A stretch of 64,000 nucleotides of DNA from Oscillospiraceae bacterium. Its GTDB lineage: Bacteria > Bacillota > Clostridia > Oscillospirales > Acutalibacteraceae. Each line of letters starts with the position of its first letter. The first letter of the stretch is position 1. The position numbers were made by a program, and so were the translations under genes. Below the pieces are notes generated by a model. That model had not been told where the DNA came from and did not search any database. It saw nothing but the letters and a program-made list of their open reading frames with translations. Shown here one piece after another: positions 6,707 to 61,584 of this stretch. The stretch lies in the NCBI GenBank assembly GCA_022650485.1, contig JALCPP010000008.1, positions 1-64,000 of the forward strand. The letters run 5' to 3'.

Positions 6707-7133
6707 GTAATGATTCCCCTTTTCCTAAATCATTTTTACCAAATCCGAACGGCAGCAGTTCCCGCAGGGAGAGAACTTTCCGTTCTTCCGGTGATTTGGC
6801 AAGGATGACCTGAAATTGATCCGGACTGCAGAATTCCATCATGACCTGCCGGCAGACGCCGCAGGGCGGGCAGTAGTCGGAGAGAGGGGCCCCTGCTTTC
6901 CCGCCCACAATGGCAATTGCCTTAAATTCATGTTCCCCTTCACTGACGGCTTTGAAGAATGCGGTTCGTTCCGCACAGTTGGAGGGAGTATAGGCCGCGT
7001 TTTCAATGTTGCAGCCGCGATAAATTTTTCCGCTTTTTGCCAGAAGTGCGGCGCCGACCGAAAACCCGGAATAGGGGGTGTAGGCCATCTTGCGCGCGTT
7101 CATTGCTTCCAGTACCAGCTCTTTTTCGTCCAT
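6693..7133 (-). CDS. cdd: Cytidine deaminase
   Basis: The 146-aa enzyme converts (deoxy)cytidine to (deoxy)uridine, feeding the phosphorylase encoded next. The zinc site is complete: Cys53 and Glu55 in NCAERTA, and Cys91 and Cys94 in PCGVC. This is the homotetrameric Cys3 type known from Bacillus. The start at 7133 is set by AAAGGAG four bases upstream; in-frame codons further up run into hairpin DNA and were rejected. A long palindromic intergenic region separates it from deoC. Confidence 0.93.
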   Translation of the reverse strand: MDEKELVLEAMNARKMAYTPYSGFSVGAALLAKSGKIYRGCNIENAAYTPSNCAERTAFFKAVSEGEHEFKAIAIVGGKAGAPLSDYCPPCGVCRQVMMEFCSPDQFQVILAKSPEERKVLSLRELLPFGFGKNDLGKGESLHENV

Positions 7134-59509: not shown

Positions 59510-59596
59510 GCCGGTGTGTTGGAATTGGCAGACGAGACAGACTCAAAATCTGTTGTCCGCAAGGGCGTGTGGGTTCGAGTCCCACCACCGGCACCA
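59510..59596 (+). tRNA. tRNA-Leu (anticodon CAA)
   Basis: The 87-nt gene has acceptor arms GCCGGTG (59510-59516) and CACCGGC (59586-59592) and an encoded CCA (59594-59596). The anticodon stem is ACAGA/TCTGT around the loop CTCAAAA, giving anticodon CAA. The long variable arm is typical of class II leucine tRNA, and the T arm is GTGGGTTCGAGTCCCAC. Its 3' end is the start of a tandem repeat array. Confidence 0.95.
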
Positions 59597-60556
59597 AAAG
59601 ATTTGTTTAAAAGCACTCAGCTTTTGCTGGGTGCTTTTGTTTTAAACAGTACAGCGCGGTGGTGGGCGAGAACCCACCGGTGCAGCCCGGAGGACCGGTG
59701 AAAGCCTTTTATTTGAAACAAGCTTTCTGCATAGGGGGCGCGGAACGCGGAAAACGGTTGGACCACCCGAGTCCCACCACCGGCACCAAAAGATTTGTTT
59801 AAGAGCACTCAGCTTTTGCTGAGTGCTTTTGTTTTAAACAGTACAGCGCGGTGGTGGGCGAGAACCCACCGGTGCAGCCCGGAGGACCGGTGAAAGCCTT
59901 TTATTTGAAACAAGCTTTCTGCATAGGGGGCGCGGAACGCGGAAAACGGTTGGACCACCCGAGTCCCACCACCGGCACCAAAAGATTTGTTTAAAAGCAC
60001 TCAGCTTTTGCTGAGTGCTTTTATTTTAAACAGTACAGCGCGGTGGTGGGCGAGAGCCCACCGGTGCAGCCCGGAGGACCGGTGAAAGCCTTTTATTTGA
60101 AACAAGCTTTCTGCATAGGGAGCGCGGAACGCGGAAAACGGTTGGACCACCCGAGCCCCACCACCGGCACCAAAAGATTTGTTTAAGAGCACTCAGCTTT
60201 TGCTGGGTGCTTTTGTTTTAAACAGTACAGCGCGGTGGTGGGCGAGAACCCACCGGTGCAGCCCGGAGGATCGGGGAAAGCCTTTTATTTGAAACAAGCT
60301 TTCTGCATAGGGGGCGCGGAACGCGGAAAACGGTTGGACCACCCGAGTCCCACCACCGGCACCAAAAGATTTGTTTAAGAGCACTCAGGCTTTTGCTGGG
60401 TGCTTTTGTTTTGAACAGTACAGCGCGGTGGTGGGCGAGAGCCCACCGGTGCAGCCCGGAGGACCGGGGAAAGCCTTTTTTTGAAACAAGCTTTTTGCAT
60501 AGGGGGCGCGGAACGCGGAAAATGGTTGGACCACCCGAGTCCCACCACCGGCGCCA
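59597..60556 (+). repeat. Five tandem 192-bp units, each ending in a copy of the tRNA-Leu 3' end
   Basis: The units are 59597-59788, 59789-59980, 59981-60172, 60173-60364 and 60365-60556, all exactly 192 bp. Each begins with the terminator hairpin. A GGTGGG-CGAGAA-CCCACC hairpin, a GAAAGC/GCTTTC stem and a GC-rich stretch follow. Each unit then ends with the last 21 nt of tRNA-Leu including CCA. Units differ by a few substitutions, mostly in loops or as G-U exchanges; units 3-5 are the most diverged. The 63-aa minus-strand frames they contain are antisense to tRNA sequence and are not genes. Confidence 0.95.
59609..59638 (+). terminator. Terminator directly after tRNA-Leu (in repeat unit 1)
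   Basis: AAAAGCACTCAGC (59609-59621) and GCTGGGTGCTTTT (59626-59638) pair with a TTTT loop, followed by GTTTT. A copy with the stem conserved is present in each repeat unit. Confidence 0.85.
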
Positions 60557-60562
60557 AATTAA

Positions 60563-60618
60563 AGTCATGTATGAGTATTTAAACTTATGTATGACTTCTT
60601 ATTGGTTTATGATATAAT
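60563..60618 (+). promoter_or_regulatory. Promoter and inverted repeat before the alpha/beta hydrolase
   Basis: TATAAT (60613-60618) has a weak ATGACT -35 (60591-60596). Overlapping the -35 is an imperfect inverted repeat, GTCATGTATGAGT and ACTTATGTATGAC (roughly 60563-60596), which could be an operator. Confidence 0.5.
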
Positions 60619-60690
60619 TAAGAAAAGATTATTGATAGTTTGCGACTTATTCTTATAAATATATAATCAGTAGAGAAGGGAGAATTTAAT

Positions 60691-60741
60691 ATGTTAAGTA
60701 ATTCAATAATTAAAAAGCTATGGAGGCTCATACCTCGATAG
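60691..60741 (+). CDS. Very short open frame before the hydrolase, possible leader peptide
   Basis: GAAGGGAGAA lies eight bases before ATG. The frame encodes MLSNSIIKKLWRLIPR (16 aa, basic) and stops 13 bp before the hydrolase start. The good ribosome binding site and position suggest a leader or coupling peptide, or a remnant of a deleted gene. Its expression is unproven. Confidence 0.4.
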   Translation: MLSNSIIKKLWRLIPR

Positions 60742-60753
60742 TAGGAGGTAAAA

Positions 60754-61446
60754 ATGACAACACAAAATATTAAAATAAACAATATCCCTTCGATCATATG
60801 GGGAAAACAATCAGATCAGGTATATATTCATGTTCATGGTAAAATGTCTCGTAAAGAATATGCAGAGCCATTTGCCCAAATAGCTGAGAAAAAAAGCTAC
60901 CAAACACTTAGCTTTGATTTACCTGAACATGGAGAGCGAAGCAACAGTGATTATCGTTGTGATATTTGGAATGGTATGAACGACCTTTCGTTAATTGCCG
61001 ATTATGCTTTTTCAAAATGGAATGATGTGTCCCTATTTGCGTGTAGTCTTGGTGCATATTTTAGTTTAAATACTTATGCAAACAGAAAGTTTTCCAAGTG
61101 CCTTTTTCAATCACCAATGTTAAACATGGAATATATGATTAGGCAAATGTTTAAATTGTATGATGTTAGCGAAGAACGGCTTCGCTTGGAAAAAGAAATT
61201 TCAACACCTTTTGATACATTACGTTGGGACTACTTTCAATATGTGCTAGAGCATCCAATTAAAAATTGGAATATTCCAACATCCATTCTCTATGGTGGAA
61301 AAGATAATTTGCAACCTATTAAAATAATTCAAGCCTTTGCGGATGAACACCACTGTAAACTGACGGTTTCTGAAAACAGCGAACATCCTTTTATGCAACC
61401 TGAAGATGTAAAAATTGTTGCTAAATGGTTTGAAGATAACTTATAA
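60754..61446 (+). CDS. Alpha/beta hydrolase
   Basis: This 230-aa protein shows the alpha/beta hydrolase core. An oxyanion-hole-like VHGKMSR lies near residue 27. The nucleophile elbow FACSLGAYFS has Ser near 98, in a GxSxG variant with Ala first. The Asp is in YGGKDN (about 185) and the His in SEHPF (about 210). The substrate is unknown. The gene is clearly AT-rich compared with neighbours, lies directly after the tRNA-Leu repeat array and is followed by a decayed repeat copy. All of this suggests horizontal acquisition. AGGAGG precedes the ATG. Confidence 0.8.
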   Translation: MTTQNIKINNIPSIIWGKQSDQVYIHVHGKMSRKEYAEPFAQIAEKKSYQTLSFDLPEHGERSNSDYRCDIWNGMNDLSLIADYAFSKWNDVSLFACSLGAYFSLNTYANRKFSKCLFQSPMLNMEYMIRQMFKLYDVSEERLRLEKEISTPFDTLRWDYFQYVLEHPIKNWNIPTSILYGGKDNLQPIKIIQAFADEHHCKLTVSENSEHPFMQPEDVKIVAKWFEDNL

Positions 61447-61525
61447 GTATTATGAACCATCCATAAGCCGATAGTTTGAATTTTTATTCAAGAATTGTAT
61501 GCCATCATATATAACCGCTAAACTT

Positions 61526-61584
61526 AAAAGATTTGTCTTAGAGCACTCAAGCTTTTGTTTTGAACAGTCCCACCGCCGGCATCA
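61526..61584 (+). repeat. Decayed, internally deleted copy of the 192-bp unit
   Basis: It starts like a unit (AAAAGATTTGTCTTAGAGCA), keeps one arm of the terminator and the TTTTGTTTTGAACAG stretch. It then jumps directly to a tRNA 3'-end-like CCCACCGCCGGCATCA. About 133 bp of the unit are missing. Together with the main array it brackets the hydrolase gene. Confidence 0.8.

Follow-up and report, generated by a model that had tools for sequence, protein, structure and literature searches.

The window, a stretch of 64,000 nucleotides from an Oscillospiraceae bacterium, carries behind its tRNA-Leu(CAA) gene a tandem array that seems to belong to a widespread, unrecognized class of tRNA-anchored mini-elements. 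The units of the array are probably non-autonomous mobile mini-elements with tRNA 3′ ends as their insertion sites, the arrays growing by recombination between the tails. The nearest described counterpart is the RtT RNA of Escherichia coli, long regarded as a peculiarity of the tyrT locus with an unclear role. Its anatomy behind many Bacillota tRNA genes, with ends that follow the host, poses a general question with testable predictions, and such a system, mobile or RNA-based, would use the most conserved genes of every cell as its home.

The coordinates and parts of the array are given in table 1. Tandem Repeats Finder reports a repeat at 59576-60558 with a period of 192, 5.1 copies and 97% matches, all four start-to-start intervals measure 192 bp, and ARAGORN places tRNA-Leu(CAA) as the sole tRNA gene in the window. 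The tandem array of five 192-bp units after tRNA-Leu, which an earlier note had proposed from the sequence, is thereby confirmed. Pairwise identity among the units is 96-99%. Their uniform length holds for all five, in unit 5 through a compensating insertion and deletion, while the 21-nt tail that the note had called identical throughout is exact in units 1, 2 and 4 and differs by one T>C in unit 3 and one A>G in unit 5. The terminator hairpin described for each unit is present as a terminator-like hairpin; it is specific to this locus, and the arrays behind tRNA-Pro and tRNA-Gly (below) lack the same hairpin. The antisense T-arm, the decayed sixth unit and the resemblance in layout to E. coli RtT are additional to what had been described.

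Table 1. Features of the array behind tRNA-Leu(CAA); positions are those of the window.
Feature	Position	Strand	Remark
Host tRNA-Leu(CAA) gene	59510-59596	+	ARAGORN, Rfam RF00005
Copied tail (last 21 nt of tRNA-Leu)	59576-59596	+	
Unit 1 (terminator, antisense T-arm, core, tail)	59597-59788	+	
Unit 2	59789-59980	+	
Unit 3	59981-60172	+	one change in tail
Unit 4	60173-60364	+	
Unit 5	60365-60556	+	one insertion and one deletion, one tail change
Terminator-like hairpin and T run, unit 1	59608-59638	+	one per unit, in all five
Core of unit 1, type A	59654-59767	+	conserved GCAGCCCGGAGGACC and CGCGGAACGCGG
Antisense T-arm 5′ strand, unit 1	59657-59666	+	CGGTGGTGGG; complementary to tail copy
P1 hairpin, unit 1	59661-59678	+	GGTGGG-CGAGAA-CCCACC; double changes relative to Pro units
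Sense tail copy, unit 1 (T-loop to CCA)	59768-59788	+	recurs at 59960, 60152, 60344 and 60536
Segment of 969 bp between unit 5 and decayed unit	60557-61525	+	
Decayed sixth unit	61526-61584	+	terminator remnant abutting a degenerate tail, without core

An assembly artefact is an unlikely source of the array, because it lies in the interior of a 163-kb contig and its units are individually distinct. With the terminator included, a unit folds with z = -3.3 relative to shuffled sequences; core and tail alone give z = -1.2, which is not exceptional. At both gathering and permissive thresholds, Rfam yielded no family in the window except tRNA. The idea that the units mimic tRNAs with CCA ends is not supported as such: ARAGORN reports a single tRNA, and a unit lacks the 5′ acceptor strand. 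The 969-bp segment that separates unit 5 from the decayed unit contains an ORF at 60754-61446 resembling an alpha/beta-hydrolase (a weak PF12146 match, below the cut-off), and could be either a gene-bearing insert within the array or native DNA.

The core of the Leu units, which we call type A, recurs behind other tRNA genes. The earlier note had suggested looking for the same unit at other tRNA genes, and in the closed genome of a congener (G003) it was found in a pair of 174-175-bp units behind tRNA-Pro(UGG) and a run of three 167-bp units behind tRNA-Gly(GCC), without an integrase nearby. The terminators differ among the Leu, Pro(UGG) and Gly(GCC) loci and every unit closes with its own host's tail, while the GCAGCCCGGAGGACC and CGCGGAACGCGG blocks are nearly invariant throughout. 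The antisense arm of these units carries a modified loop, CGAGAA, and is imperfect in part; in the Pro(UGG) and Gly units it matches the host only imperfectly. One decayed type A core lies behind tRNA-Pro(CGG), with weaker remnants at further places. The genus of the window species is represented by four genomes in the collection searched; across 394 genomes of the order, type A matched in its own genome only, and among 49 stretches pulled by pattern from 85,000 species there was one clear match, in Caproicibacter fermentans; by a match, the genus belongs in Caproicibacter or beside it. A match in Kribbella (E 0.001) covers just 63 nt, misses the stretch that separates the conserved blocks and was set aside as probably due to chance. 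Two matches of the core patterns in viral contigs, with no tRNA, were chance hits. In model R1, the P1 helix is correct and the third helix lies one column off; its matches rest mainly on sequence.

One type A remnant and three weak matches lie apart from these arrays. Behind tRNA-Val in G003 (L204, approximately 6960-7010), the remnant has no tail and carries an antisense arm unlike that of the neighbouring tRNA, and is possibly a recent move or a decayed copy. Three weak matches (L033, L044 and L045, in G001, G000 and G003) lie near terminator-like hairpins with no adjoining tRNA. Together with the tRNA-Val remnant they fit decay, although it could also be that tRNA genes are not the sole target.

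A common design is shared by units with several different cores. We scanned the DNA downstream of 146 tRNA genes from three genomes of the genus for a copy of each gene's own tail. In addition to the arrays above, this revealed a unit behind tRNA-Asn in the window species and, in G003, units behind Lys and Glu, three behind Tyr and two behind Arg; G001 has a shortened unit behind Arg. The cores at Arg, Lys, Glu, Tyr and Asn differ from type A, and those of the Arg, Lys and Glu units are homologous to one another. Unit size ranges from approximately 150 to 195 bp, and the order is the same: the tRNA comes first, in most cases with a terminator after it, and is followed by an antisense copy of its own T-arm, the structured core and a sense copy of its 3′ tail. 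Single units are common, and some loci repeat tail and terminator as one block. At six tRNAs (Leu, Asn, Arg, Tyr, Lys and Glu) the unit's antisense copy of its own T-arm is exact over 10-15 nt, compared with at most 8 nt in a reversed control. In sequences collected by hand (n = 31), complementarity between antisense arm and tail averaged 8.1 nt for the unit's own tail against 5.2 nt for foreign tails, a difference reached in none of 5000 permutations.

The design extends across the Bacillota, where all the patterns we used were narrow and the frequencies are accordingly lower bounds. A T-arm with its antisense copy a short way downstream was matched in 16 of 391 Clostridia genomes. After all ARAGORN tRNAs had been masked, which excludes convergent tRNA genes as the source, the antisense arms did not correspond to other tRNA genes, and tail copies were present at many loci; one locus (L328) turned out to be a broken copy of a tRNA. 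A tail lies within 260 nt in 28 of 40 loci with an antisense arm, with at most one mismatch in 12. The arm agrees with the host's T-loop variant in 14 of 16 loci, against a mean of 5.0 in shuffles, none of 20,000 of which reached 14; the pattern was open to four T-loop variants per side, and a few of these loci come from sister species and are not all independent. A model of the type B core, in which information on the host tRNA is limited to the antisense arm itself, matched 5 of 398 genomes of the phylum at E ≤ 0.001, four of them with their own or nearly their own antisense arm. Its matches include new tRNA-linked loci, among them one at tRNA-Met with an exact antisense arm of 19 nt.

Covariation, which the earlier note had proposed as a check, is strong for type B. 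Flanked by the AGCG and CAGCGA motifs, its 11-bp core hairpin is 97.7% paired across eight loci; both sides have changed in 10 of the 11 pairs, and the whole structure, including a 3-bp P1, exceeds 500 of 500 shuffles in both the cells paired and the covariation score. For type A, two pairs of P1 show double changes among three independent intact loci, a sample of little power and weak when taken alone. A repeat confined to this one place and without covariation, which the note had said would reduce the array to simple slippage, is thus not what we observe: other tRNA genes are occupied and type B covaries.

Orthologous tRNA genes of sister species, some of which have no unit, reveal where the units begin and end. 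At Arg(CCG), the terminator AGGCGGGTTTTTATAACCCGCCT comes directly after the tRNA in the window species and, in G003, behind the last tail. The reverse applies at Asn, where the terminator lies directly after the tRNA in G003 and after the tail in the window species, and at Glu the unit sits between the tRNA and 5S RNA. A regenerated tRNA, a displaced tail and unoccupied sites in relatives are thus present at Arg, Asn and Glu. From these orthologous sites without a unit, the insertion begins directly after CCA and ends with the tail copy, and the native terminator is displaced. At Leu, where unoccupied relatives carry unrelated terminators, these other loci suggest the same exact junction.

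RtT (RF00391, rttR/tpr) behind E. coli tyrT is the only described relative that we could find in a literature search of partial scope. Like the window array, it consists of tandem units behind a tRNA, each closing with the tRNA 3′ tail, and it has an antisense T-arm hairpin with a GAGAA-type loop (GGGGAAGG-gtgagaa-ccttcg) and a core before the tail. In K-12 the order at tyrT is tail, spacer, a GGGGAAGG-(g/a)TGAGAA hairpin antisense to the T-arm, the core GAGCG..AGCGAGAG and tail. RtT differs from the window array in being hosted, in the records inspected, by tRNA-Tyr only, rather than tRNA-Leu, and in having no visible hairpin resembling an intrinsic terminator between tRNA and unit; it is annotated as a processed small RNA. 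The RF00391 covariance model found no match in the window, while units from E. coli reach 133-138 bits in a search of this kind. By its sequence, then, the array is not an RtT RNA, yet it shares the RtT anatomy.

RtT is present in 4680 of 5426 complete E. coli genomes, at one to nine places in each. Its unit number varies by strain, with 4, 3, 2, 1 or 0 annotated units per locus among the strains inspected, and its junctions lie exactly at CCA. In strain Z1323PEC0010, which has no RtT units behind tyrT or tyrV, the CCA of both genes runs directly into the DNA that adjoins the last tail in K-12; deletion from tail to tail could be an alternative source of these unit-free junctions. Eighteen RtT places lie on E. 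coli records classed as plasmids.

Other known systems share parts of the design. According to PMC4383910, the hallmark of tRNA islands is a regenerated tRNA with a displaced tail. Like the units, these tyrosine-integrase islands target the tRNA 3′ end, regenerate the tRNA and leave the displaced tail at the far end; the units, in contrast, are approximately 150-195 bp long, geneless, unlinked to an integrase and stacked in copies, and carry a host-matched antisense T-arm. In line with the earlier note, which had seen no integrase in the window, a PF00589 search found none on the whole 163-kb contig, and the PF00589 coordinates in G003 place no integrase near any unit. Tyrosine recombinases are present elsewhere in these genomes, some adjoining tRNA genes. 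The window array has island-like junctions and lacks the integrase expected of the island family. Integron cassettes also form arrays at one site and, with attC (a folded single-stranded hairpin), have ends able to pair in a folded single strand; the units carry no gene and target a tRNA, and the likeness serves as a working analogy only. MITEs and REP/BIME sequences resemble the units in being short, protein-less, structured, recurrent and probably moved in trans, but not in the exact tRNA 3′-end target or the host-matched ends. Analogies with group II introns and bridge RNAs were dropped for want of a matching feature. Neither the window unit nor a type B unit found a match in phage and plasmid collections; RtT matched the phage collection once and partially, in a Salmonella record. 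The class may have escaped notice because repeats related to tRNA are discarded in surveys; in one survey of stem-loops, tRNA-related clusters were removed (PMC2267715).

We consider integration at tRNA ends the best explanation because the cores recur, each unit has its host's own tail and the junctions lie exactly at the 3′ end. These same observations favour the earlier note's view of the units as cassettes of a tRNA-integrating element, except that no tyrosine recombinase is linked to them and the integrase is presumed. Each 192-bp unit would be a copy of a small element homed at the 3′ end of a tRNA gene and, as no integrase is linked, non-autonomous. The unit would rebuild the tRNA end, sitting directly after CCA, often with its own terminator, and closing with a tail copy that adjoins the native downstream DNA. 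The antisense arm and tail copy, with the conserved structured core between them, may act as inverted repeats joining both ends of the unit in a folded single strand of RNA or DNA. Movement would most likely occur by site-specific recombination at the tRNA tail, with an enzyme supplied in trans, and arrays would gain and lose whole units through recombination between identical tails. After a move, the arm could be re-matched to the new tRNA by template-switch correction of the imperfect palindrome; such correction is a known mutational route. We infer movement from the recurrence of cores, and CCA-exact sites may also arise by tail-to-tail deletion. A bolder version, which we think unlikely, makes the units a widespread class of geneless mobile cassettes with tRNA 3′ ends as their integration platform, in which the antisense T-arm and tail of one folded DNA strand would restore a double-stranded site for recombination, as in integrons, and RtT a fixed member rather than an operon by-product.

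The covarying type B hairpin and the tracking of the host tRNA by the antisense arm would also be expected if the units were functional RNAs. In that case small RNAs with CCA 3′ ends, as reported for RtT, would be released from the tRNA transcript and act in trans, or on tRNA maturation via the antisense T-arm, with selection maintaining pairing and copy number. We regard this as possible, though on balance doubtful: at many loci, including that in the window, tRNA and core are separated by a terminator-like hairpin that ought to curb transcription started at the tRNA promoter, and any RNA role would be dispensable because the units are absent from orthologous tRNAs of sister species and from some E. 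coli strains. Conservation of structure and mobility are nevertheless compatible, and both may be true together. It is quite improbable that the units are relic ends of larger tRNA islands or prophages, that is, attachment-site fragments left by island loss. The regenerated tRNA and displaced tail are indeed the island mark described in PMC4383910, and the ORF-bearing 969-bp segment before the decayed unit would suit such a history, but units of approximately 150-195 bp with intact structure recur in many genera, without linked island genes or integrase, the phage and plasmid collections gave nothing that matches the window unit or a type B unit, and a host-matched antisense T-arm is not a known feature of attachment sites.

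Local duplication of a tRNA 3′ end together with the DNA downstream of it, by slippage or unequal recombination, with no mobile element involved, is very unlikely to be the whole explanation. Tails of approximately 20 bp permit tandem growth, tail and terminator are repeated as one block at some loci and unit number varies in E. coli, so the earlier note's alternative of slippage from one insertion survives as the best account of array growth. As an origin it is largely refuted: it explains neither the homologous cores behind Leu, Pro and Gly, and behind Arg, Lys and Glu, nor the antisense T-arm in every unit type. Arrays of tails might conceivably serve as decoys that absorb incoming integrases and so shield the tRNA, each tail being a copy of a typical attachment core in genomes whose tyrosine recombinases in part adjoin tRNA genes; this is hardly credible given that single units are common and that the conserved core and antisense arm would have no explanation.

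Further variation was seen among the loci. Four loci behind tRNA-His and tRNA-Ser in several Bacillota (L323, L332, L333 and L337) have another core type, GAACGGGCGGA..CCCGCC..GGCGTGATAG..GAGCAAGTCCC, with arm/tail complementarity of up to 15 nt. At L284 and L293, the arrays stop within the second unit, past its antisense arm, with apparent cuts at different points. One genome (G1229) gave six matches to the open pattern; the two that were read (L331 and L345) have related cores behind tRNA-Met and tRNA-Arg, and this is possibly an active lineage.
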